Made by a program: the position numbers and the translations under genes
The notes under the pieces: model-generated
The model's input: the letters and a program-made list of their open reading frames with translations, nothing else
The model's database searches: none
Told to the model about the DNA's origin: nothing
NCBI RefSeq assembly: GCF_000017505.1
Contig: NC_009675.1
Span: 1,054,001-1,118,000 of the forward strand
Length of the DNA: 64,000 nucleotides
Reading direction: 5' to 3'
DNA from: Anaeromyxobacter sp. Fw109-5
GTDB taxonomy: Bacteria > Myxococcota > Myxococcia > Myxococcales > Anaeromyxobacteraceae
Shown: positions 31,360 through 46,215 of the stretch, one piece after another
Position numbering within the stretch: the stretch's first letter is position 1
Layout of the letters: every line of letters starts with the position of its first letter

Positions 31360-32829
31360 CTACCTCTTCACCGCGGCGGGCTGCACGGCGGGCGCGGCGC
31401 CCGGTGCGGGCGGCGGCGGCGGGATGGTCACCACCGCCACCGTCGGCTCGAAGGACGGATCCCTCAGCGCGAGCTGACCCTGTCGCGAGGCGTCGACCGA
31501 CTCGAACAGCACGCGGGCTGCCTCCTGAGGCGCGTGGAAGCCGGTCGAGTTCTCCGCCTCCACGAAGTCGAAGAGGAACTGCGCACGGCGCTGGAGGAAG
31601 CGCGCCTTCTCGAGGTCGGCGTCTCCCTTGCCCGCCTCCTTCGCGGCCTTGATGTCGCCGATGAGCGCGACGAGCGCGTCGAACGCCTGCTCGCGGAGCT
31701 CCATGTGCTTGTCCTGGATCGCCTCGACCCGGGCCTTGAGCTCCTCCTCGGGCCACTTGTGGCAGCCCTGGCAGGCGCGGTTCAGGTTGAGCACCGGGCT
31801 GCGCACCCAGTGGTCGGAGACCTTCGTCCCGCCCACGCGCATGTAGGGCATGTGGCAGTCGGCGCAGGCGACGCCCGAGCGGGCGTGGATCCCCTGGTTC
31901 CACATCTCGAACTCGGGGTGCTGCGCCTTGAGCGCCGGCGCGCCCGACTCCTTGTGCGTCCAGTCACGGAACCCGACCTCGTCGTAGTACTCGGCGATCT
32001 GGTCGGCCTTCATGCCCTTCGACCAGGGGAACGTGAGCCGCTTCTCCGCCCCCTTGAAGTAGTACTCGACGTGGCACTGGCCGCAGACGTAAGCGCGCAT
32101 CTCCTGGCGCGTCGCCATGGTGTTCGGGTCGTAGTTCTCGATGCCCTGCGAGGCCTTGAACGCGCGGATGCCCTCCATGAACCCGGGGCGGGTCACGCGC
32201 AGCGCCATGGTCTTCGAGTCGTGGCAGTCGATGCAGGCGACGGGGTGCTTGAAGTGCTGCTTCGCCTCGGAGTACGGCATCTTGTTGAGGGCCTCGAAGC
32301 CCTTGAAGATGTCGCCGTCGCCGAGCTTCTTCATCGGGACGTAGACGGACGCGTGGCACTGCCCGCAGGTGCCGGGCTGCTTAGCGACGACCTGGCGCTG
32401 GGTGAAGATCTGGTCGTCGAGCGTGTACGCGTGGCCGCGCTCCTCGCGGAAGTCGGCGGCGAACGCGTAGCCGGCCCACATCGTCTTGAGCCGCGGGTCC
32501 GCGTCGGTCTTCGACTGCGAGGTCACCTTCCGCGGGTCCTGCTCGGTGGGCGAGCGCGGGATGGCCTCCGACCCGCCGTACTTCGTGCGGACCATGTCGG
32601 TCGTCTTCTTGTAGAGGTCGTACTCGACCGGGAAGTTCTTGCCCCACACCGCGGGGTCCTCCGTGTCGTCGTTCAGCTCCACCACGCGGACGATCGGGTT
32701 CTTCGCCTCGCTCTTCTTCTCCGCGATGTTCACGAGGAGCGCGGCGGCGAGGACGGCGGCGAGGGCGAAGGCGCCGGCCACGAGGCCGATGAGGAGCCCG
32801 CGCTTCTTCGGGGCGGTTTCGGGGGTCAT
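31360..32829 (-). CDS. nrfA: Ammonia-forming cytochrome c nitrite reductase NrfA (CXXCH type), membrane-anchored
   Basis: A 489-residue pentahaem enzyme reducing nitrite to ammonium in six-electron steps on the periplasmic face. Haem sites: CGQCH 155, CIDCH 199, CGQCH 249, CADCH 322, CQGCH 353. The first, the active-site haem, is CXXCH rather than the usual CXXCK. Active-site Arg131 (RGH), Tyr256 (HVEYYF) and His304 (KAQHPE) are kept, as are the calcium ligands Glu255, Tyr256, Lys301 and Gln303. Residues 10-33 are one hydrophobic helix without a clear cleavage site, so the protein may stay anchored. The C-terminus is a Pro/Ala tail. It follows nrfH by 29 bp; AAGGAG is 8 nt before the ATG. Confidence 0.93.
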   Translation of the reverse strand: MTPETAPKKRGLLIGLVAGAFALAAVLAAALLVNIAEKKSEAKNPIVRVVELNDDTEDPAVWGKNFPVEYDLYKKTTDMVRTKYGGSEAIPRSPTEQDPRKVTSQSKTDADPRLKTMWAGYAFAADFREERGHAYTLDDQIFTQRQVVAKQPGTCGQCHASVYVPMKKLGDGDIFKGFEALNKMPYSEAKQHFKHPVACIDCHDSKTMALRVTRPGFMEGIRAFKASQGIENYDPNTMATRQEMRAYVCGQCHVEYYFKGAEKRLTFPWSKGMKADQIAEYYDEVGFRDWTHKESGAPALKAQHPEFEMWNQGIHARSGVACADCHMPYMRVGGTKVSDHWVRSPVLNLNRACQGCHKWPEEELKARVEAIQDKHMELREQAFDALVALIGDIKAAKEAGKGDADLEKARFLQRRAQFLFDFVEAENSTGFHAPQEAARVLFESVDASRQGQLALRDPSFEPTVAVVTIPPPPPAPGAAPAVQPAAVKR

Positions 32830-32858
32830 CTGCGTATCTCCTTGGTGTGGTGAGACGT

Positions 32859-33311
32859 TCAGCGGAGGTGTCCGACGGAGGGGTGGCAGCGGATGCAGGA
32901 GACCTCACCGCCCGCCGTCATCGCGTCGACGACGTCGGCGTGGCAGTGGCGGCACTGGCCCTCGACGACCTCGCGGCTCTCGGGCCGCGCGCGGATCACG
33001 TCGGGGAACCCGCCGAGCGTGAAGGCCATCGAGTGGTGGTAGCCGTTGGTCGCCTTGGTCAGGTACTTCCCGACCGGCGTGGCGGGGGTGTGGCAGTCGT
33101 TGCAGGTGGCGACCGCGTGGTGGGAGGACTGCTGCCAGCCCTCGAGGTGTCCGGACATCACGTGGCAGTTGGCGCACGTGGCCGGGTCGTTGCCGAGGTA
33201 CGACGTCCCCTTCGCGTACGCGAAGGCGTAGCCGCCGATGCCCGCCGCGACGCCGAGGGTACCGGCGACGAGGAGCAGCGGCCACGAGAGGAGCGAGCTT
33301 CCGATGGGCAT
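32859..33311 (-). CDS. nrfH: NrfH, tetrahaem quinol dehydrogenase of the NapC/NirT family
   Basis: A 150-residue membrane-anchored cytochrome that takes electrons from menaquinol and passes them to NrfA. One membrane helix (about 9-31) precedes four haem sites: CANCHVM 46 (with the Met after the His that ligates haem 1 in NrfH), CNDCH 70, CRHCH 120 and CIRCH 139. Length matches NrfH. The ATG at 33311 is chosen; a GTG at 33344 would add 11 polar residues. A stem GAGGGGC/GCCCCTC ends directly before this ATG and could hide its ribosome binding site. First gene of the nrfHA-napD-octahaem operon. Confidence 0.93.
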   Translation of the reverse strand: MPIGSSLLSWPLLLVAGTLGVAAGIGGYAFAYAKGTSYLGNDPATCANCHVMSGHLEGWQQSSHHAVATCNDCHTPATPVGKYLTKATNGYHHSMAFTLGGFPDVIRARPESREVVEGQCRHCHADVVDAMTAGGEVSCIRCHPSVGHLR

Positions 33312-33518
33312 GAGGGGCCTCGCGAGCGAGTTGCCCCTCTCCACTTCGCAAGCGGCGCGCCAGCGCCTCCGCGCGGCGCGCGCACGCGTCGACGCGGGTT
33401 TGCGCGCGCGGCGGACAGGAACGCGCAGGGCGGTCGGATGCCCCGCCGCAGCGGATCGGATGCCGGCATCCGAGGCGCGCGCAGCCGCGCGAGCGTGATC
33501 ACCCGGGGGAAAGGCGAA

Positions 33519-33587: not shown

Positions 33588-33980
33588 CTACTCCATGGAG
33601 ACGCTGTTCACGCCGTAGCAGGACAGCGCGAGGAGGCTCGTGCGCTGCCACTTGCGCGCGGGGTTCGACAGGAAGTGCAGCGAGTAGCGCTTCCCGTCGG
33701 GCAGCGCACCGATCCGCTCGATCCAGTGGATGAAGGACTTGAAGCCGGACGAGTTGCAGAACTCGAGCTCGCGCAGGTCGACGCGGACGCGGTGCTGCCC
33801 CAGCTTCGCCAGCTCGCCGTGCACGGCGTCCACGAAGGGGTTGAGGATCACCGCGGGGTTGACGGTGCTGATGGTGCCGCGGAACACGACTCGGGGTCCG
33901 TCCGCGTCGCTGGCGAGCAGCGCGGAGTACTTGTCGTCCGCGACCTGCAGCGGGTTGGTCGGGACCGGCAACTCAGGCAT
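33588..33980 (-). CDS. STAS-like / SiaC-like partner-switch protein
   Basis: A 130-residue soluble protein. The central block RVRVDLRELEFCNSSGFKSF is the phosphorylation loop pattern of STAS/SiaC-like antagonists, where Ser (or Thr) next to a helix is phosphorylated by a cognate kinase. It overlaps the HATPase gene by 8 nt, and that gene overlaps the SpoIIE phosphatase gene by 8 nt, giving the full phosphatase-kinase-substrate set. The layout resembles SiaA-SiaB-SiaC of Pseudomonas but with no diguanylate cyclase. The output target is unknown. Confidence 0.75.
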   Translation of the reverse strand: MPELPVPTNPLQVADDKYSALLASDADGPRVVFRGTISTVNPAVILNPFVDAVHGELAKLGQHRVRVDLRELEFCNSSGFKSFIHWIERIGALPDGKRYSLHFLSNPARKWQRTSLLALSCYGVNSVSME

Positions 33981-34497
33981 GGGCTCCTCCGGGAACCTTC
34001 AGTGCCGGCGCGCGCAGCGCGCCGGAGGCGTGGACGGTGACGCGGCCACCCGAGCGGCTCAGGGAGAGCTCGAGCTGCGATTCGAAGCGGACCCGCGCGA
34101 GGCCGAGGCCTCCGCGCACGGTGGCCGGGGACGTGCTCATCTCGGTGAGGTAGTGCCGGAGCGCGTCCGGCTCGCGGTTCATGCGCGCGATGCGCTCCTC
34201 CAGCGCGCGGAACTCGGCCTCGGTGCACCGGTTCGTCACCGCGACCTCGACGCGATCGGCGTCCGGGTCGACCTCCAGGACGAGATCGACCTCCTCGTCG
34301 TGCGAGTGCGGCACCGCGTTCTGCATGAGCTCGTGCACGGCGAGCGCGAGCTGCGACTCGCGGTTCGCGGCCACGTCGCACGCGCACGCGCAGAACGACT
34401 CGACGAAGCGGCGGATCTCGTCGATGAAGACCCAGGGCGGCTTCATCCGGAGCATGAGGTAGATGGGCTGGCGCGGCTCGGGCTTCCGGTCAGGCAT
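33973..34497 (-). CDS. RsbW/SiaB-like HATPase with degenerate ATP-binding motifs
   Basis: A 174-residue protein related to anti-sigma serine kinases. The N-box region is present as AVHELMQNAVPHS and a G2-like segment as GGLGLARVRF. The expected G1 box (DXGXG) is missing: the strand VEVAVTNRCTEAEF occupies its place. ATP binding may therefore be altered, or the protein may resemble SiaB-type (DUF6272) kinases. Gene overlaps on both sides imply tight stoichiometry with the SpoIIE and STAS partners. Confidence 0.7.
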   Translation of the reverse strand: MPDRKPEPRQPIYLMLRMKPPWVFIDEIRRFVESFCACACDVAANRESQLALAVHELMQNAVPHSHDEEVDLVLEVDPDADRVEVAVTNRCTEAEFRALEERIARMNREPDALRHYLTEMSTSPATVRGGLGLARVRFESQLELSLSRSGGRVTVHASGALRAPALKVPGGAHA

Positions 34498-36391
34498 GGG
34501 GCTGGCGCCTCAGGACGACTGCGGTCATGTCGTCCGCCTGCGTGGCGGCGAAGGCCTCGACCCTGGAGAAGATCGCGGCGAGCGCCTGCGAGGCGGACGC
34601 GGTGTGGACGGCGGGCTCGGAGAGCATCTGGGCGAGGCGGTCCTCGCCGAAGAGGTCGCCCCTCGCGTCCGGCGCCTCGACGACGCCGTCGGTGATGAGG
34701 CAGAGCATCTCGCCCGGGCGGACCTCGAACTCGTACTCGCGCGGCTGCACGTGGGGGCCGAGGCCGCACCAGGGCCCGGCGGGCTCGATGACCTCGACCT
34801 TCCCGCTGCCGCGGGAGAGGAAGATGGGCTGGTGGGCGCCGGCCGCGACGAAGCGCCCGTCGCCGAGGTGCCGCGCGGCCATGAGGGTGAGGTAGTCGTC
34901 GCGCCGCATGCGCTTGCGCACGTTCTCGTGGACGACCCGGTTCACCGCCGCGATGACGCTCTTCGGCGAGAGGCGCGGGTTCTCGGCGATGGCGGCGTAC
35001 GCGGCGGCCTGCGCCATCATCATGACGAGGCCGGAGTTGATCCCGTGGCCCGAGACGTCGCCGACGAGGACCCAGAAGGTGTCCTCGAACGGCAGCAGGT
35101 CGTACAGGTCGCCGCCCACGTCGTCCGCCGGCTTCATGCGCGCGGCGACGTCGTAGCCAGCGAGCGACGGCGCGACGGGGAGGATGGCGGTCTGGATCCG
35201 GTGCGCGATCTCCACCTCGCGGCGGAGCGCCTCGGTTCGCTGCAGCTCGTCGCGCGAGCGCTCGACCTCGCTCACCATCACGTTGAACGAGTGGACGAGG
35301 TCTCCGAGCTCGTCCCGGTACGCCTCGGGGACGCGGGTGGAGAGATCGCCGCCCGCGACCGCCGACATCGAGCGCGTGATGTCGGTCAGGGGCCGTGAGG
35401 CCTGGCGGATCGCGCCCACGCTCGCGAGGCCCGCCGCGGCGAGCACGATCGCGAACATGACGCCGAGGAGGGCGCGGAGCCAGTACAGCCGGCCGTAGGC
35501 GTCGGACTCGTGGACAGCCATGAGCGTGCGCCAGCCGGGGACCCCGACGCCGGCGGCGGTCCGCACGGAGAGCACCGGCTCCGAGCCGGCGAGCGCGACG
35601 TGCTCGAGCTCGCCGGGAGCGCCCGCCGCCGCCTCCGCCAGGGCGCGCGCCTGCTGGGTGCTCGCGCCCGGCAGCGAGAGCACGAGCGTGAGCCCCTCGT
35701 CGGCGACGACGGGCTGGTAGTGGCCGTCGGCCGCGATGCCGCCCAGGAGGCGCGAGAGCGCCTGCGGGGGCATGATCGCGACGACCACCCCCACGAGGTC
35801 GGCGGCGAAGTCCTTCACCGGCGCAGCGACCATCACGCCGAGCGCGCGCGCCTCGGTGGGGTCGAGCCGCGAGAGCGGCGCGACCCCGGCGGCGACGCCG
35901 TCGCCGAGCTCGGTCGTGGCGTCCAGCGCCGCCTTCACCGGGGCGTCGCCGAGCACCACGCCGCGCAGGCTGGCGACGGGCAAGCCGCGGCGCTCGCCCT
36001 CCGCGCCCTCGCGCACCGCGGCGATGATCGCGCCGTCCATGTCGAGGAGCGCCGCCGCCGAGATCGAGCCCCCCTGGTCCTGGATGGTGCGACGCAGGTA
36101 GTCCTCGGCGAACTTCGGGTCGCCCGAGTCGATCGTCATCTGCATCGCCTCGGCCTCGGCCCAGCTCCGGACCGCCAGCGCGCGCTCACGCTGGAACCGC
36201 ACCACCGCGGCCTGGACCTCCTCGGCGCGGGCGGAGAGGTGCGAGTGGATGGCGTCGACGATCACCGAGCGCGCGACGCGCTCGAAGGCGACCGCGGCGA
36301 CACCGAGGGCGAGCGCGACGAGGACGAGGGTCGCGACGAGGAGCCGGAAACGCAGCGAGCTCTTCGCGCGCTCGGGGACGGAGGAGAACAT
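34490..36391 (-). CDS. Membrane sensor PP2C (SpoIIE) phosphatase with Cache and HAMP domains
   Basis: A 633-residue inner-membrane sensor phosphatase. Helix 1 (about 16-37) and helix 2 (about 308-330) frame a 270-residue periplasmic Cache-like sensor. A HAMP domain (about 330-385) and short coiled coil (ELQRTEALRREVEIAHRIQ) lead to the SpoIIE/PP2C domain (about 415-630), with metal-binding DDVGGDLYDL, GDVSGHGINSGL and the terminal DDMTAVVL. It would dephosphorylate the STAS partner encoded two genes downstream. No CXXCH is present in its sensor. It begins 13 bp after the monohaem cytochrome gene, so redox conduit and signalling genes share one transcript. Confidence 0.9.
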   Translation of the reverse strand: MFSSVPERAKSSLRFRLLVATLVLVALALGVAAVAFERVARSVIVDAIHSHLSARAEEVQAAVVRFQRERALAVRSWAEAEAMQMTIDSGDPKFAEDYLRRTIQDQGGSISAAALLDMDGAIIAAVREGAEGERRGLPVASLRGVVLGDAPVKAALDATTELGDGVAAGVAPLSRLDPTEARALGVMVAAPVKDFAADLVGVVVAIMPPQALSRLLGGIAADGHYQPVVADEGLTLVLSLPGASTQQARALAEAAAGAPGELEHVALAGSEPVLSVRTAAGVGVPGWRTLMAVHESDAYGRLYWLRALLGVMFAIVLAAAGLASVGAIRQASRPLTDITRSMSAVAGGDLSTRVPEAYRDELGDLVHSFNVMVSEVERSRDELQRTEALRREVEIAHRIQTAILPVAPSLAGYDVAARMKPADDVGGDLYDLLPFEDTFWVLVGDVSGHGINSGLVMMMAQAAAYAAIAENPRLSPKSVIAAVNRVVHENVRKRMRRDDYLTLMAARHLGDGRFVAAGAHQPIFLSRGSGKVEVIEPAGPWCGLGPHVQPREYEFEVRPGEMLCLITDGVVEAPDARGDLFGEDRLAQMLSEPAVHTASASQALAAIFSRVEAFAATQADDMTAVVLRRQPHA

Positions 36392-36404: not shown

Positions 36405-36737
36405 CTAGCCCAGCCCTTCCTTCTCGGCGCGGAACTTCAGGAACTCGTAGATGCGCTGCGCCTGCTCCTCGTTGATCCCGGAGTTCGGGCGGCGGAGCAT
36501 CTTCTTCATGTAGCGCTTCCACTGCTGGGAGCTGAAGTGCGAGTTCACGGCGCGCGCCGCCGGGTGGCACTTGTTGCACTTCGAGATGAGCAGGTCGTAC
36601 TTGCGCTGGTGCTCCTCGGGGTACCCCGAGACGTCCATGGTCCCCGGGCCGAAGTCGCGCGGATCGGGGGGCGCCTTCTCGGGCTCGGCGCCGAGCAGGA
36701 GCCCGAGGACGGCGGTGGCGGCGAACGTGACGGGCAT
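36405..36737 (-). CDS. Small monohaem c-type cytochrome
   Basis: A 110-residue exported cytochrome. A hydrophobic N-terminus (about 2-17) acts as signal or anchor. The single site CNKCH is at 54-58 and the likely axial Met is in YMKKMLRRP near 77-80, followed by SGINEEQAQRIYEFL, the typical last helix of class I cytochromes. It overlaps the porin gene stop by one base (TGATG), so they are translationally coupled. It may shuttle electrons to or from the haem-bearing barrel. Confidence 0.88.
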   Translation of the reverse strand: MPVTFAATAVLGLLLGAEPEKAPPDPRDFGPGTMDVSGYPEEHQRKYDLLISKCNKCHPAARAVNSHFSSQQWKRYMKKMLRRPNSGINEEQAQRIYEFLKFRAEKEGLG

Positions 36738-37915
36738 CAGAAGGCTCCTCCGAAGCCGAGGTGCATGGAGTTGAAGTCCTGGAACGGCGTCGTGCCCGCG
36801 GGCGTCCCGATCATCGTCTCGTCGCTCCAGTACTCCCACGCCAGCTTGACGTAGACCGCCGAGGCCGGCGTCAGCACGAGGCCGGCGGTGTAGCGGACCA
36901 GCAGGCTGTCCGGGGTCAGGGGCGTCGGCCCCGGGAGCGGGACGCCGCGACGGCGGAGCTCGTCGTAGCGGTAGACCACGTCGAGGTGGCTGCCGAGGGG
37001 GTGCTCGATCTCGGCGTACCAGCCCTCCTTGACGACGAACGGGTCGACGATCGCCCACTTGTACCCGGGCGCGTTCGTGTCGATGTCGGTGCGACGGGCG
37101 GCGTACTCGCCGCGCAGCGTGGCCGGGCCGAGCTTCATGGAGGCGTCGGCCCCCACGGCGACGTAGTCCAGCCTGGCGGCGCGATCGTAGCGGCCGCCGG
37201 TGGCGGAGGCGCCGACGCTGACGTCGCCGAAGAACCCCTTGCCGTCGGTGGAGAGGGTGAACGAGACCCGCGCGCCCGCCGCGGGCTGGTCGTTGTTGTC
37301 GGTGTAGTAGACGGTGCGCAGGGAGGTGAAGTCGAGATCGTTCGCGCCGCGCATGCCGGCCACGCCGTAGAGCCCGTACCAGACCTGCACGCTCTCGCCC
37401 AGCCAGGTGACGCCGTACAGGAGCGCGCCCGTGTCGGAGTACGGCTGGGGGATGACGCCGAGGTTCATCTGGCTCTTCTCGCCGTAGGCCATCCGCCCCA
37501 TGTCGTAGATGAGCGGCGCGGACGCGGTCTTGTGTCCGGACTGATCGACCCGGTTCGCGTATTCACCGAACGGCACGGCGATGCGGCCGACCTGGAGGTT
37601 GAACCAGGTCTTCGGCGTGTAGTCGAGGTGGGCGTGCTCGAGGTCGATGCCGTGGCAGCTGAAGCAGGCCTTGGCCGAGAAGGCGAGGTCGTCGTGGATG
37701 TCGACCTGCACCTTCAGCGAGGCGTCCGGCGACACGGAGCGCGGCGCGCGGGCGGCCACGTCCTTCCGCTCGATGCCCCAGTAGTCGACGTACACGGACC
37801 CGGAGACGATCACGTTGTCTTCGCCGGCGGCGGCCGCGCGCGGGAGCGCGAGCAGGGCGGCGGCCAGGGTGAGCACGGCGGCGGTGGTCCGCCGCTGCGC
37901 GCTACGGCTAGTCAT
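36737..37915 (-). CDS. Outer-membrane beta-barrel (porin-like) carrying one CXXCH haem site
   Basis: A 392-residue protein with a signal peptide (to about 30) and alternating beta strands to the C-terminal aromatic (HLGFGGAF), typical of an outer-membrane barrel. After two or three strands it has CFSCH at 84-88 (SAKACFSCHGIDLEH), a complete c-type haem motif inside the barrel sequence, followed by HLDYTPKTWFNLQVGRIAVP. Porins of known porin-cytochrome conduits do not usually carry a haem site. Its gene overlaps the upstream CX4CH lipoprotein gene by 8 nt and the downstream cytochrome gene by 1 nt, implying a complex. Haem attachment is inferred from the motif. Confidence 0.8.
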   Translation of the reverse strand: MTSRSAQRRTTAAVLTLAAALLALPRAAAAGEDNVIVSGSVYVDYWGIERKDVAARAPRSVSPDASLKVQVDIHDDLAFSAKACFSCHGIDLEHAHLDYTPKTWFNLQVGRIAVPFGEYANRVDQSGHKTASAPLIYDMGRMAYGEKSQMNLGVIPQPYSDTGALLYGVTWLGESVQVWYGLYGVAGMRGANDLDFTSLRTVYYTDNNDQPAAGARVSFTLSTDGKGFFGDVSVGASATGGRYDRAARLDYVAVGADASMKLGPATLRGEYAARRTDIDTNAPGYKWAIVDPFVVKEGWYAEIEHPLGSHLDVVYRYDELRRRGVPLPGPTPLTPDSLLVRYTAGLVLTPASAVYVKLAWEYWSDETMIGTPAGTTPFQDFNSMHLGFGGAF

Positions 37916-38378
37916 TCGGCGCTCCGTTCGCGATCCACGCCTCGATCGCCTGGATTTCGGACTCGTCGAGGACGGCGTCGCCGATCGGCATCGGGCTCGC
38001 GACGCCGCCCACCTCGCCGGCGGTGCCGCGGAGCTTCAGGACGAGGTAGCTGTTCTCGGGCTCGAAGGGCTCGACGAGGTTCATCGTCATCTGCAGCGAG
38101 GGCGCGCTGACGAGGAAGCCGTACGCGAGGTGCGCGTCGAGCGGCGGGTACTCGCCCCACTCGCCGGCGTGGCAGGACGCGGTGGCGCAGCGCGGCGCGA
38201 GGATCTCCTGCGCGAGCGTGGCGAAGCTCTGGGAGGGGCCGGGCGGACCTTCCTGGGCGGGCTTCCGCTCGCCCACGCCGGGCGCGGGCGCGCACGCGAC
38301 GAGCGCCGCGAGGGCGACGGCGCCGCAGATGCTGTCCAGAGAGCGCGGCCGGCGCCAGTCGCCGCGGCCGAGTCGCAT
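37908..38378 (-). CDS. Cytochrome-like lipoprotein with a CX4CH motif
   Basis: A 156-residue lipoprotein with an N-terminal basic leader and lipobox ALVAC (Cys 29). After a Pro-rich linker comes APRCATASCHAG at 61-72, in which the cysteines are four residues apart (CX4CH) as in some tetrahaem cytochromes c3. Its C-terminus (SPMPIGDAVLDESEIQAIEAWI) matches the last helix of planctomycete/myxobacterial cytochrome domains with a Met ligand. It is the first gene of the haem-porin operon. GGGGAGG lies 5 nt before the ATG. Haem binding by CX4CH is plausible but not certain. Confidence 0.8.
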   Translation of the reverse strand: MRLGRGDWRRPRSLDSICGAVALAALVACAPAPGVGERKPAQEGPPGPSQSFATLAQEILAPRCATASCHAGEWGEYPPLDAHLAYGFLVSAPSLQMTMNLVEPFEPENSYLVLKLRGTAGEVGGVASPMPIGDAVLDESEIQAIEAWIANGAPND

Positions 38379-38663: not shown

Positions 38664-41030
38664 ATGAGCGGCCGGATCACGAAGGGCGCATTCGCCGCGG
38701 TGACGCTCGCGCTCGCCGCCTGTCAGCAGGCGCCGAAGCTCGGTGCGCCCGTCGGCGCGCCCCCGCCGACGGGGCCGCACATCGAGCTCAGCGGCGCGCA
38801 GGTCGTCGACGGGCGCGTGGTCGCCACCGTCCGGATCTCGCGCGACGGGACGCCGCTCGGGCTCGAGGCGGCGCGCGCGCTCGATCCGGCCTTCACGCTC
38901 GCCGCGCTCGGGAAGGGGCCGCTGAACCAGCTCCCGGTGTGGCGGAGCCTCGTGCTCACGGGGGAGCTGCAGCCCGGAGCCGAGAGCCACGGCGCCTGGA
39001 CGGCGCTGGGCGGCGGGGCGTTCACCTACGCGTTCGCCGAGCCGCTGCCGGCGGGGCACGATCCCGCGGAGACGCTGCGCGTCGGCGTGTGGCTGCGCGC
39101 GGTCACGGGGACGGCGCTCACCACCTCCACGACGGACTTCGTCCCGAGCAGCGGGAAGCTCGGCGGACGCGAGCTCGTGCTGGACGCGCGCTGCGGCGAC
39201 TGCCACGGCACGCTCAGGGCGCACGAGGGCTCGCGCACCGGGACGCGCATCTGCGTGACCTGCCACACCCATCAGCTCGTCGACGCGCAGACGGTCGATC
39301 CGGCGGCGCCCGCGGACGCGACGCCGGCGACGAGCCCGAACCCGCTCGAGCTGGGCCGGCTCGTCCACCGCATCCACCGCGGCAAGAACCTCCCCACGCT
39401 GTACGCGTCGAGCACCACCGCCGCGGCGCCGCCGATCGGCGCGCAGAGCCCGAAGCCCTTCCTCCCGGGACGGAACGCGCCGGTGCTCGGACGGAAGTTC
39501 TCGGTGGTCGGCGAGCAGAGCCGCGAGCGGGTCTTCGGGCAGGTGGTGGCGCGCACCGACAACGGGCAGGCCCCGCGCCTGCTCGCGCGAGGGGTCACGT
39601 TCCCGCTCGACTACCGCAGCTGCACCGCGTGCCACGAGGGCGCGGTGGACGCGCCCCGGCTCGACACCGAGATCTCGCGGCGGAGCTGCCAGGGCTGCCA
39701 CCCCGACGTCTGGTTCGGAGAGGGCGCGCCGCCCGACGCCGTCCACTTCGCTCACTCCGGCGGGCCCAAGGCGGACGACGACGGCTGCGTCACGTGCCAC
39801 GTGTCGCGGCAGGGCGATCCGGCGGACTGGGTCGACATCAAGGAGGCGCACGTCGCGCCGCCGAAGAGCCCGCGCTTCGACAAGCCGGTGCTGGAGATCG
39901 TCGAGGTCAGGAACGCCGCCCCCGGACAGTCCCCGACGATCGTGTTCACCGTGTCCGATCGCAACGGCCCGCTGGAATCGCTCACGACGCCCGCTCCGGC
40001 GTACGACGCGACGAGCCCGATCCCCCGCGGCGGGTTCGCCTACCCAGGCTGGTTCGAGGCGACGATCGCCGGCCCTCCGGACCCGGACTTCCGATCCTTC
40101 GGCAGCCCCGCGGTCCCGATCAGCGAGCTGGTCCCGGTGGACACCCACGTGAACGCGGAGGGGCGGTTCGAGTACACCTTCACGGCGAAGCTGCCCGCGG
40201 ACGCGGCCGGCACGTGGGTCGTGGCGCTGGACGCGCGGCGGGCGGGGTACACGCAGCTGTTCGACGCCGCGAGGAACGCCTTCGCCTGGCCCTACACCGG
40301 CGAGTCCCTCTACGAGCCGGCGGACACGGCGCTCGTGTGGATCGACCTCGCCGCCGGCGGGACCGGCGGCGGCTCCCCCCAGCCGCGCCGGAGGATCGTC
40401 GACGTCGACAAGTGCAACCAGTGCCACGGGCGCGTCGCCTACCACGGGTCGATGCGCACGAACGTGGACTACTGCGCCGCGTGCCACGCGCCGGACCGGA
40501 GCGACTGGCACGCGCGCCCGAAGACGGGCGGGGGCGACACCGACCTCGCCGGCACCTACGACGGGGTGGAGGAGCGCTCGATCCACTTCAAGGTGATGAT
40601 CCACCGGATCCACACGGGCGGACGCTCGGGCACGGCGGAGCTCTCCTCGCTCCGGCCGTACGCGTCGTACGGAAGGTACGGCTTCCGCTTCCGCGACGTC
40701 GGCGAGTTCCCGGGCGATCTCTCGCAGTGCACGCTCTGCCATCTCGACGGCACGTACCGCGTCGAGTCGGTCCCGGCGGACGCGCTCCCGACCCTCGCGA
40801 ACGAGACGGCGACCATCCGCCACGCGGGCTCGAGCGCGCACGGCGAGGACGAGCCGGCCACCCCGCCGATCACCGCGGCGTGCACCTCCTGCCACGCCAC
40901 CGCGTACGCCATCTCTCACGCCGCGCGCCAGACCGGGAACGGCAAGGAGCAGTGCGCCTCCTGCCACGGCGTCAAGGGCGCCCACTCCGTCGACAAGGTC
41001 CACCGCCTCCCGCTGCCGGTCCCGCTGTAG
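38664..41030 (+). CDS. OmcA/MtrC-family decahaem c-type cytochrome lipoprotein
   Basis: A 788-residue outer-surface cytochrome. The lipobox LALAAC puts the lipid on Cys20. An N-terminal beta domain (about 40-180) precedes the first pentahaem group (CGDCH, CVTCH, CTACH, CQGCH, CVTCH). A second beta domain follows (VEVRNAAPGQSPTIVFTVSD), then the second pentahaem group (CNQCH, CAACH, CTLCH, CTSCH, CASCH). Ten sites and split beta domains match the OmcA/MtrC family that moves electrons to extracellular metals or shuttles. GGGAGG is 6 nt before the ATG. The haem-porin operon is divergent, and no MtrA-like periplasmic decahaem protein is in the window. Confidence 0.95.
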   Translation: MSGRITKGAFAAVTLALAACQQAPKLGAPVGAPPPTGPHIELSGAQVVDGRVVATVRISRDGTPLGLEAARALDPAFTLAALGKGPLNQLPVWRSLVLTGELQPGAESHGAWTALGGGAFTYAFAEPLPAGHDPAETLRVGVWLRAVTGTALTTSTTDFVPSSGKLGGRELVLDARCGDCHGTLRAHEGSRTGTRICVTCHTHQLVDAQTVDPAAPADATPATSPNPLELGRLVHRIHRGKNLPTLYASSTTAAAPPIGAQSPKPFLPGRNAPVLGRKFSVVGEQSRERVFGQVVARTDNGQAPRLLARGVTFPLDYRSCTACHEGAVDAPRLDTEISRRSCQGCHPDVWFGEGAPPDAVHFAHSGGPKADDDGCVTCHVSRQGDPADWVDIKEAHVAPPKSPRFDKPVLEIVEVRNAAPGQSPTIVFTVSDRNGPLESLTTPAPAYDATSPIPRGGFAYPGWFEATIAGPPDPDFRSFGSPAVPISELVPVDTHVNAEGRFEYTFTAKLPADAAGTWVVALDARRAGYTQLFDAARNAFAWPYTGESLYEPADTALVWIDLAAGGTGGGSPQPRRRIVDVDKCNQCHGRVAYHGSMRTNVDYCAACHAPDRSDWHARPKTGGGDTDLAGTYDGVEERSIHFKVMIHRIHTGGRSGTAELSSLRPYASYGRYGFRFRDVGEFPGDLSQCTLCHLDGTYRVESVPADALPTLANETATIRHAGSSAHGEDEPATPPITAACTSCHATAYAISHAARQTGNGKEQCASCHGVKGAHSVDKVHRLPLPVPL

Positions 41031-41106: not shown

Positions 41107-42654
41107 CTACCTCGACGGGCTCTGCGGCTTCGGCGCCGGCGCCGGCGCGGGCCGCGCGTCCGGCGCCGTGCCGGTCGCCTGGCTCGGGCCGGGCTGCGCC
41201 GTCGGGATCGACACCACCTTCACGTCGGGCTGGAAGGAGGCGTCGCGGAGCACCAGCTGCCCCTGGCGCGAGAAGTCGATCGACTCGCCGAGGATCCGCA
41301 GCGCCTCCTGCGGAGCGTGGAAGCCGGTCGAGTTCTCGGCCTCCACGAAGTCGAGGAAGAACTGCGCGCGCCGCTGGAGGTAGCGCGCGGCGTCGAGCTG
41401 CGCCGGCGAGGCCTTGCCGCCTGCCTGCGCCTTCTCGAGGTCGGCGACGAGGCCCATGAGCGCGTCCATGGCGTTGTCGCGCTGCTTGAAGAAGCGGTCC
41501 TGCTCCGTGAGGACGCGCTGCTTCAGGGCGTCGGGCTTCACGTCCGCGTGGCACTTCGTGCAGGACGCCTCGACCTTGAGGAGCGGGCTGTTCACCTGGT
41601 GATCGGTGATCCGCTCGCCCTTGTACGCGATCTCCGGCATGTGGCAGTCGACGCAGCTCACGCCCGAGCGGCCGTGGATCCCCTGGTTCCACATCTCGAA
41701 CTCGGGGTGCTGGGCCTTCAGCGCCGGCGCGCCGGTGGTCTTGTGGACCCAGTCCTTGAACTTCACCTCGTCGTAGTACGCGATGATGTCGTCGACCTGG
41801 AGGCCCTTCGACCAGGGATAGGTGAGCTGCTTGTCCTCGCCCTTGAAGTAGTACTCCACGTGACACTGTCCGCAGACGAACGCGCGCATCTCCTTCTGGG
41901 ACGCCTGCGCGTTCACGTCGTAGTTCTTCACGCCCTGCGTCGCCTTGAGCTCGCGGATCCCGTTGATGAACCCGGGGCGCGTCACGCGAAGCGCCATGGT
42001 CTCGGGATCGTGGCAGTCGATGCAGGCCACCGGGTGCTCGACGTGCTTGCGCGCCTCCACGTACGGCATGGCGTTCATCTTCCGGAAGCCGGCCTGCAGG
42101 TCGCCGTTCCCGAGCTTCCTGTACGGGACGTACACCGAGGCGTGGCACTGCATGCACGAGCCGGGCTGCTTCACGACCGCCTGGCGCTTCGTGAAGGTCT
42201 GGTCCTCGAGCATGTACGCGTGGCCGCGCTCCTCGCGGAAGTCGACGCTGAACGCGTAGCCCGCCCACATCGTCTTGAGGCGCGGGTCCTCCTCGATCTT
42301 CTCCTGCGACACCACCGAGCGCGGGTCCGCCTCGTCCGGTGTGCGCGGCAGCGCCTCCGACCCGCCGTACTTGGTGCGGATCTGGTCCACGGTCTTCTTG
42401 TAGGTCTCGTACTGGAGCGGATACTCCTTGCCCCAGACGGCGGGATCGTCGGTGTCGTCGGTGATCTTCTGTCCGGCGGGCGCGGCCTTCGCGCCGGGAG
42501 GCTTCGCGCTCGCGCCGGACTTCTTCCCCTTCGGGGCGGCGCCCGGCTTCGCGGCGTCGGAGCGGGTCTGCGCGTGCGCGAGGGTGGCGCCGGCGCCGAG
42601 CAGCGCCGCGAGGGCGATCGCGAAGAAGTGGCTTCGGTGGTTGCGGTGGGTCAT
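41107..42654 (-). CDS. nrfA: Second NrfA-type cytochrome c nitrite reductase (CXXCH type), soluble
   Basis: A 515-residue paralogue of the NrfA at 31-33 kb. A cleavable signal (to about 28, ending AHAQ) and a Lys/Ala/Pro-rich linker to about 62 replace the membrane helix. Haem sites: CMQCH 167, CIDCH 211, CGQCH 261, CVDCH 334, CTKCH 365, again with CXXCH at the active-site haem. Active-site RGH, HVEYYF and KAQHPE are intact. There is no nrfH beside it, so electrons must come from elsewhere. The likely regulators, an NtrC-type activator and a haem-motif kinase, are encoded just upstream on the same strand. GGGCGGG precedes the ATG directly. Confidence 0.92.
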   Translation of the reverse strand: MTHRNHRSHFFAIALAALLGAGATLAHAQTRSDAAKPGAAPKGKKSGASAKPPGAKAAPAGQKITDDTDDPAVWGKEYPLQYETYKKTVDQIRTKYGGSEALPRTPDEADPRSVVSQEKIEEDPRLKTMWAGYAFSVDFREERGHAYMLEDQTFTKRQAVVKQPGSCMQCHASVYVPYRKLGNGDLQAGFRKMNAMPYVEARKHVEHPVACIDCHDPETMALRVTRPGFINGIRELKATQGVKNYDVNAQASQKEMRAFVCGQCHVEYYFKGEDKQLTYPWSKGLQVDDIIAYYDEVKFKDWVHKTTGAPALKAQHPEFEMWNQGIHGRSGVSCVDCHMPEIAYKGERITDHQVNSPLLKVEASCTKCHADVKPDALKQRVLTEQDRFFKQRDNAMDALMGLVADLEKAQAGGKASPAQLDAARYLQRRAQFFLDFVEAENSTGFHAPQEALRILGESIDFSRQGQLVLRDASFQPDVKVVSIPTAQPGPSQATGTAPDARPAPAPAPKPQSPSR

Positions 42655-42723
42655 CCCGCCCTTTTGCCGGGGGGCGCGGCAATCCGGCGCGCCTTTGCGG
42701 GGCTGGCCCGCGTGGGATGGCGT

Positions 42724-42739
42724 GCAAGCGGGCACTTGC
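42724..42739. promoter_or_regulatory. Inverted repeat upstream of the second nrfA
   Basis: GCAAG-N6-CTTGC, 70 bp before the nrfA start. It could be a site for the adjacent NtrC-type activator. A matching sigma-54 promoter with correct GG-N10-GC spacing was not found. Confidence 0.3.
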
Positions 42740-42862: not shown

Positions 42863-44259
<1,397 letters not shown>

Positions 44260-44263
<4 letters not shown>

Positions 44264-45999
44264 GGAGCCTCCGCGGGCGCGCGATCGTGGCCAGCCTCGT
44301 CCGCCTCGGCGATGGCCGCCGGTGCGGCGGCGCGGCGGACGGGGAAGCGGATCGCGGCGACGGTCCCGCCGCCCTCGCGGGGCGACAGCGCGAAGCGGGC
44401 GCGGTGCTGCTCCGCCGCGCGGCCCACCACCACGAGGCCGAGCCCGGTGCCGGTCGGCTTGGTCGTGACGAACGGGCGCAGCACCTCCTCGAGCATCTCG
44501 GGGGGCACCCCGCAGCCGCGGTCGCGCACCTCCACGACGATGGTGCCCTCGCCGCCCGCGGTCTCGTAGCGGCTCGCGAGCTCCACCGGAGCCTCCCCGC
44601 CGGCCTCGAACGCGTTCTGCAGCAGGTTCACGAGGGCCTCCGTGATCATGGGGGCGTCCACGTCGAGGACCGGGAGGTCGGGGGAGAGGTCGAGCCGCAC
44701 CGCCTCCGGCGCGAGCCCGCGGGCGACGGCGACCTTCTGCGCGGCCTCGCGGAGCAGCCGGTTCACCGAGACCGCGCGGAAGTCGGGCTCCGCGGGGCGC
44801 GCGACCTGGAGCAGCTCGGAGACGAAGCGGTTAACCCGCTGCACCTCCTCGCCGATGAGCCCGGCGTACTCGGCGACCTCCGCGTCGCCGTCGAAGCGGC
44901 GGCGCAGGTACTGGGCCGCGCCGCCGATGGCGTTCAGCGGGTTGCGCAGCTCGTGCGCGATCTGGGCGGACATCTGCCCCAGCCCGGAGAGCCGCTCCGC
45001 GTCGAGCAGCCGCCGCTCGAGCGTGCGCCGCTCCGCGATGTCCCGGATCACCATGACGGTCCCGAGGTAGGCCCCGCCGGCGCCCTTCACCGGCGCGTAG
45101 GTCGTCTCGAACCGGCCCTCGCGCTCCTTGATGATCGAGTGGGCCGGCCCGGCGTCGTCCCCGTCGCGGAGGTAGCGCATCACGCGCTCCAGCATCGAGT
45201 GCGAGGCCTTGGGGTGGCAGTCGCGGAGCGGCCGCCCCGGGCCGCCGGTGAGGTTGCGCAGCACGCGGCCGGCCTGGTTCACGAGGGCCACGTTGTCGTC
45301 GGCGTCGATGAAGAGCACGCCGTCCGCCATGGAGTCGAGGATCGCCTGGAGCCGCGCCAGGTCGGCGGCCCGCGCCTCGCGCGCGGCGTTCGCGGCGGCG
45401 AGCGCCTCGGCGAGCCGCTGGGTGCGGTCGGCGACCCGCCGCGCGGCGCGGACCACGAGGACGACGGCCGTGCCGATGGCGAGGAAGGTGAGCCCGACGA
45501 GCGCCCAGATCCGGCGCGCCGAGGCCGCGAGCCGCGGGCCGAGGTCGGTGGTGTCGAGCGCGACGAGCAGCGCCCCGTTCACGGCCGTGGTGCCGTGGCA
45601 CGACCGGCAGGCGCCGGCGTTCGCGATGGGGCTGGAGTGGACGAAGCGGGTCTCCGTCCAGCGGCGCTCCGCGGCGAAGCCGAGCCGGCTCGGGGCCTCG
45701 CCCGCGGCGAACCGCACCCGCCCGTCGGGACCGGCGAGCGCGGCGCCGGCGACGCCCTGCGTGCGCGACACGGCGGCGAGGATGGCGCCCATGCTCTCGG
45801 GCCGGTGCTCCTCCATGGCCTCGGTGACGGAGCGCTCCAGCGCCTCGGCGAGCGCGCTCGCGCGCCCCTCCACGAGCCGGCGCTCCGCGTTCGCCTCCTC
45901 GGCCTGGAGGTACGCGCCCGCGACGCCGGAGACCACGGCGGCGACGATGAGGAGGAGGACGGCCGTGCGGCCCGCGGCCGCGAACGTCGCTACGGGCAT
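44260..45999 (-). CDS. Histidine kinase with CXXCH in its periplasmic sensor domain
   Basis: A 579-residue membrane kinase. Helix 1 (about 12-31) and helix 2 (about 165-184) frame a periplasmic domain of about 130 residues that contains CRSCH at 131-135 (NAGACRSCHGTT), a c-type haem motif. The cytosolic part has a coiled coil, a PAS domain (about 215-325, with DCHPKASHSML as in PAS_10/DUF438 proteins), the HisKA box with His349 (QIAHELRNPLN) and an HATPase with NLLQNAFEA and GTGLGL. A covalently bound haem would let it sense redox state, NO or nitrite. It pairs with the NtrC-type regulator that follows. Confidence 0.9.
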
Positions 46000-46055
46000 G
46001 CGCCCGGAACGTACCGCGGACGGGCCGAGCAGGAAAGGCGCCGGGCGCGCTCGAC

Positions 46056-46082
46056 GGGGGGCGCGGTGACGCTGCGCCCCCC
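46056..46082 (-). terminator. Candidate terminator after metY
   Basis: GGGGGGCGC/GCGCCCCCC (46056-46064 with 46074-46082) with a 9-nt loop in the 216-bp gap between the metY stop and the kinase start. Nothing else is recognisable in this gap. Confidence 0.4.
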
Positions 46083-46215
46083 GGACCCCCGCTCGCTCCG
46101 GAGGCACCTGCGCCTGCCCCGGGCGCTCGCCGCAGCGGCACGGGCGGGAGCCCCGCTCGCCGGCCTCGTGGCTCCGGCGGCGGGGCGGTCCCGAGCCGAG
46201 CGAGCCGAGCCGCCG

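Follow-up and report, generated by a model that had tools for sequence, protein, structure and literature searches.

The window analysed here, a stretch of 64,000 nucleotides from Anaeromyxobacter sp. Fw109-5, includes a gene for a predicted outer-membrane barrel protein that has a c-type haem-attachment motif of its own and overlaps genes for a small cytochrome on either side. This arrangement raises the question of whether a porin may carry a covalent haem in its own wall and, if so, with what it would exchange electrons. The family to which the protein belongs appears to be an unrecorded variant, found in some soil and sediment bacteria, of the single-haem electron-carrying pore proteins.

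The barrel protein and the setting of its haem motif

The barrel gene (36737-37915, minus strand) has an ATG start at 37915-37913 and a TGA stop at 36739-36737, and its 392-amino-acid product is predicted from the reading frame, an AF2 model and a fold match to be a monohaem 16-strand outer-membrane porin. The earlier note, made from the letters of the window, had assigned a CFSCH motif to residues 84-88 of this frame, and the translation confirmed it (37652-37666, minus strand) as the only CXXCH in the protein. The signal peptide and aromatic C-terminus described there were also found, the former at residues 1-30 (37826-37915, minus strand) as judged by eye, and the latter as the terminal Phe of GGAF. 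Searches of Pfam and NCBIfam gave no family above cut-off for the protein, and a scan for promoters and terminators found none.

The mature protein was modelled by AF2 without haem, using an alignment of 30 sequences. The model (pLDDT 85.6, pTM 0.87) has 16 strands, and its nearest solved folds, which were also sought with Foldseek, are OprO (Z 27.8, rmsd 3.0 over 304 residues) and OprP (Z 27.7), porins of the same fold but with no haem. Seven of the 30 family members match Pfam Porin_O_P (best 9e-8), the window protein itself falling under the model threshold.

Structure prediction put CFSCH at the tip of a short barrel hairpin formed by strands 3 and 4 (residues 77-99; 37619-37687, minus strand), which occupy residues 47-56 and 59-69 in mature-protein numbering. 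The motif is preceded by two complete strands and the greater part of another; the earlier note had it after two or three strands, and the position where predicted strand 3 ends agrees with the second of these counts and not with the first. C84 shares a face with residues 78, 80 and K82 and is opposite to the hydrophobic residues 77, 79, 81 and 83, and by this alternation it would be in a lumen-facing register on strand 3. Short turns and long loops are spaced in the model as they are in a classical porin. Hence, by the usual topology, the hairpin tip (loop L2) would be on the outer side of the membrane, and the long loop L3 (residues 114-159; 37439-37576, minus strand), which includes an MGRM segment, would be the constriction loop. 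The confidence of the model falls to a block mean of 79 around the motif and to 63 for part of L3; from the conservation described below, we infer that His88 and Met139 would be the two ligands of the iron.

A CXXCH motif normally starts a helix. The two-residue beta turn in which the motif is set in the model is an unusual place for CXXCH and would suit a protein in which no haem is attached and the two cysteines form a disulfide or a metal site at the hairpin tip. However, the CxxCHG sequence is invariant in the family, a methionine segment co-occurs with it and cytochrome genes adjoin it, and we consider a haem-free motif very unlikely.

Conservation of the motif and of a methionine in loop L3

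A collection scan with two DNA patterns, one of which contained the motif, fetched 29 loci, most of them titled Anaeromyxobacter, Myxococcales, Myxococcaceae or Myxococcota; the closest were from Anaeromyxobacter terrae and A. soli (84-86%). Protein and profile searches independent of the motif were also run to avoid circularity and gave the same result. The protein search found barrel homologues in all nine genomes of the genus and in 30 of the 147 of the class, and the family reaches several lineages of Myxococcota. When 195 genomes of the phylum were searched with a profile, full-length matches with E < 1e-100 were separated by a gap from the rest, which were at 3.5e-30 or weaker, the one exception being a 3' fragment of a split gene. 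CxxCHG was present at every locus read with E < 1e-100.

The homologue search bore out the conservation of the motif: C84, C87, H88 and G89 are invariant in all 30 aligned homologues, at identities down to 33%, and each has exactly one CXXCH. No cysteine besides the motif pair occurs in 21 of the 30. Of the two residues between the cysteines, the first is freely variable and the other is one of G, S and T. H88 is the sole conserved His in the alignment, and the only other invariant His or Met is M139 (37499-37501, minus strand; 30/30), located in the MGRM segment of L3. M142 is kept in 28 of the homologues (93%).

Six porin relatives from the same phylum-wide search are haem-less, having neither CXXCH nor the methionine segment. 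The first of these (L088) is the next relative below the gap, at E 3.5e-30, and the other five (L027-L031) are weaker matches that align to the family profile from about strand 4 onward. In these five, a clean 14-residue gap removes exactly the MGRM part (YDMGRM) of L3. The attachment site and the methionine segment thus appear, from this comparison, to be gained or lost together, and their co-absence in the haem-less relatives is the strongest sequence argument for M139 as the distal haem ligand. Chance occurrence of CXXCH was ruled out by the invariance of the motif and by the haem-less outgroup. The barrel proteins probably constitute a family of conserved monohaem porins that is apparently unrecorded; no account of it was found in the searches made of open papers.

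Cytochrome partners and neighbouring genes

According to the earlier note, the barrel gene has on each side an overlapping gene for a single-haem protein. Both genes do overlap it, by 8 bases on the upstream side and by 1 base on the downstream side, but the upstream motif is CX4CH and not CXXCH. The downstream gene (36405-36737, minus strand) encodes P0002, a 110-amino-acid class-I monohaem cytochrome with a CNKCH motif. In the PDB, its family profile (A3) has matches to cytochrome c 3a9f (8e-6) and to cytochrome 7uea_C (4.7e-5), and C54, C57, H58, W73 and M80 are invariant in the family.

The upstream gene (37908-38378, minus strand) encodes P0003, a 156-amino-acid lipoprotein cytochrome with the lipobox LVAC, the haem motif C64-ATAS-C69-H70 and a near-invariant MP motif. 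Its orthologues in the genus are also lipoproteins, as judged by the lipobox. Distant orthologues at two loci (L050 and L058) have an ordinary CXXCH in place of CX4CH, the former a CVKCH together with a PSCyt1 match, which makes it very likely that the CX4CH of P0003 binds haem. A P0003-like protein with a motif apparently shortened to C-G-C-H is encoded at L048:119-808 (plus strand). A single-sequence AF2 model of P0003 (pLDDT 41) was set aside.

In almost all lineages, the barrel has a P0002-type cytochrome next to it. The cytochrome gene is downstream of the barrel in most Anaeromyxobacteraceae loci and upstream in f17 and the marine lineages (L049, L051, L052 and L093-L095), and at one locus (L044) it is about 2.5 kb away. 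In seven Archangium-type loci, the downstream P0002-type protein has two haem motifs, CLYCH and either CSKCH or CSRCH. No P0002-type partner was seen in the stretches read of L048 and L050. Several Archangium-type loci further include a gene for a cupredoxin-like protein near the barrel, e.g. L054:13424-14341 (minus strand), assigned by a weak Pfam match. For haem attachment, System II cytochrome c biogenesis (ResB) was found in the genome of Fw109-5, and a search of the genome for CcmF/NrfE gave a sub-threshold match only.

For each haem, one family-conserved Met was found besides the motif His, namely M139 in the barrel, M80 in P0002 and M130 in P0003, which suggests His/Met ligation in all three proteins. 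In c-type cytochromes, His/Met ligation leads to a fairly high potential, and the three single haems, given the predicted ligands, probably share this property. With an invariant Met as the likely sixth ligand, the iron would have no free site, and this counts against a catalytic or substrate-binding haem, e.g. one for ferrous iron oxidation or peroxide turnover, to which the porin would admit the substrate. The solute-channel nature of the OprO/OprP scaffold would suit such a role, as would the resemblance of the P0003 family to the iron oxidase FoxE (profile A4 matches 5mab at 2.3e-8). With these points taken together, we regard catalysis at the barrel haem as quite improbable.

Beyond P0002, the window includes genes for a partner-switching module. 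A HAMP-SpoIIE phosphatase gene (RsbU-like by Pfam; 34490-36391, minus strand) lies 13 bases after P0002 and is followed, with overlaps, by genes for an RsbW-like ATPase (HATPase_c_2; 33973-34497, minus strand) and a STAS anti-anti-sigma-like protein (33588-33980, minus strand), the latter two assigned with the aid of synteny and the STAS_2 match (1.6e-4) being under the curated cut-off. The order barrel-P0002-RsbU-RsbW-STAS is kept in most Anaeromyxobacteraceae loci. This common order and the close spacing of the genes are what would be expected if the barrel and P0002 formed an outer-membrane redox sensor that signals the external redox state, or the presence of a ligand, to the membrane phosphatase of the RsbU/RsbW/STAS switch. 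However, in the stretches read from Myxococcaceae, Archangium-type and marine lineages, the switch genes were not found and the barrel and cytochrome were still paired, and we consider a sensing role unlikely.

On the other side of P0003, a divergent gene (38664-41030, plus strand) encodes a decahaem cytochrome of the MtrC/OmcA type (10 CXXCH; Mtrc-MtrF_II-IV 2e-43), which is a possible surface partner. NrfH and two NrfA-type cytochrome c552 genes are at 31360-33344 and 41107-42735 (minus strand). A histidine kinase (44260-46107, minus strand), paired with an NtrC-type regulator (42863-44263), has a CRSCH motif in the predicted periplasmic portion that would act as its sensor, and it may be a haem-c sensor. 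An MtrC-type decahaem gene adjoins the barrel in several Anaeromyxobacteraceae, and this, with NrfH/NrfA and other multihaem genes nearby, would fit a barrel that passes electrons outward to the decahaem protein in the respiration of metals or nitrogen oxides. Such a role is improbable in view of the high potential suggested by the predicted His/Met ligation and of the Archangium-type loci, which include no multihaem cytochrome beyond the dihaem partner within 9 kb, as far as the contigs extend.

Proposed electron path and relation to known haem porins

The reading that we favour, and to which we give an even chance, is that the protein is an OprO/OprP-type porin whose own wall bears a single covalent haem, and that this haem exchanges electrons with P0002. 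C84 and C87, at the tip of the hairpin between strands 3 and 4, would hold the haem covalently, and its iron would be bound by His88 on the proximal side and by Met139, from constriction loop L3, on the distal side. L3 and the haem together would fill the pore near its outer half, and P0002 would dock at the periplasmic mouth to exchange electrons with the barrel haem. In Anaeromyxobacteraceae, P0003, and perhaps the MtrC-like decahaem protein, may lengthen the electron path.

A fairly high potential would tip the balance slightly away from outward metal reduction and towards the inward passage of electrons from a soluble reductant, by analogy with Cyc2 and ferrous iron. An inward path is likewise favoured by the Archangium-type loci, where the barrel and cytochrome occur with no multihaem cytochrome seen nearby. 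Against a wire of either direction is the distance, as a single haem in the outer half of the barrel would probably be too far from the periplasm for electrons to pass quickly unless the haem of a partner enters the barrel.

Cyc2 is the best-known monohaem porin and serves as a marker for iron oxidation. It is a 16-strand cytochrome-porin for which the haem and iron oxidation have been shown in vitro (PMC8406198). A monohaem porin fusion with 16 predicted strands, Cyc572 of Leptospirillum, has its haem motif at C51-H55 (PMC10654088), and in Geobacter sp. M18 the decahaem protein GM18_3465, predicted to be porin-like, has its motifs in the loops (PMC4245776). The view of the earlier note that known conduits keep haem on separate proteins is contradicted by all three, which carry motifs of their own. 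Its proposal of a different and smaller kind of conduit survives in part: the predicted placement of the haem and the set of partners differ from those of known systems, but haem on the barrel itself has precedents.

The window protein resembles Cyc2 in its single CXXCH, signal peptide and 16-strand OprO/OprP-like barrel. In Cyc2, however, the haem is in an N-terminal domain (plug) before strand 1, as is the haem motif of Cyc572, whereas the motif of the window family is in the internal strand 3-4 hairpin. Cyc2 also has AxPxFAR[QK][TY] upstream of CXXCH and PxL downstream, both of which are absent from the aligned members of the barrel family, and a FAR[QK][TY]...CxxCH DNA pattern had no match in the genome of Fw109-5. 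Membership of Cyc2 was ruled out by motif and haem position. GM18_3465 is similar in that it, too, is predicted to be a barrel whose own loops include CXXCH, but it has ten motifs and 21 predicted strands, compared with one motif and 16 strands here. The MtrCAB and Pcc systems likewise have an outer-membrane barrel encoded beside cytochrome genes, but theirs is larger (26 strands in MtrB) and surrounds a multihaem cytochrome, whereas the window family has 16 strands, one predicted haem on the barrel and small partners with one or two haems.

The Cyc2 signature FAR[KQ][TY]...CxxCH was found in 23 of the 195 Myxococcota genomes, including two others of the genus, and L096-L115 encode Cyc2-type barrels with N-terminal haem. 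Among the Cyc2-type proteins of the phylum that were translated, the haem motif is at residues 33-48 with one exception. When profiles of Cyc2 and of the window family were compared by hhalign, only the barrel parts aligned (90%, 13% identity), and the haem motifs were out of register, as would be expected if porins of similar fold had acquired haem on two separate occasions. It is tentatively proposed that the window family is a second, independently evolved type of monohaem porin, in which a haem between L2 and L3 closes an OprP-type pore at its constriction and forms, with a stack of single-haem cytochromes, the smallest wire across the outer membrane.

A second family with haem in the barrel wall and with surviving haem-less relatives would show how a pore changes into a wire, and C84, H88 and M139 provide sharp points for testing by mutation. 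It would also widen searches for iron oxidation and electron exchange to Myxococcota that have no Cyc2 motifs. One contig of the collection, MEMX01000117.1, has two copies of the haem-barrel gene (L041 and L042), about 12 kb apart and in opposite orientation.
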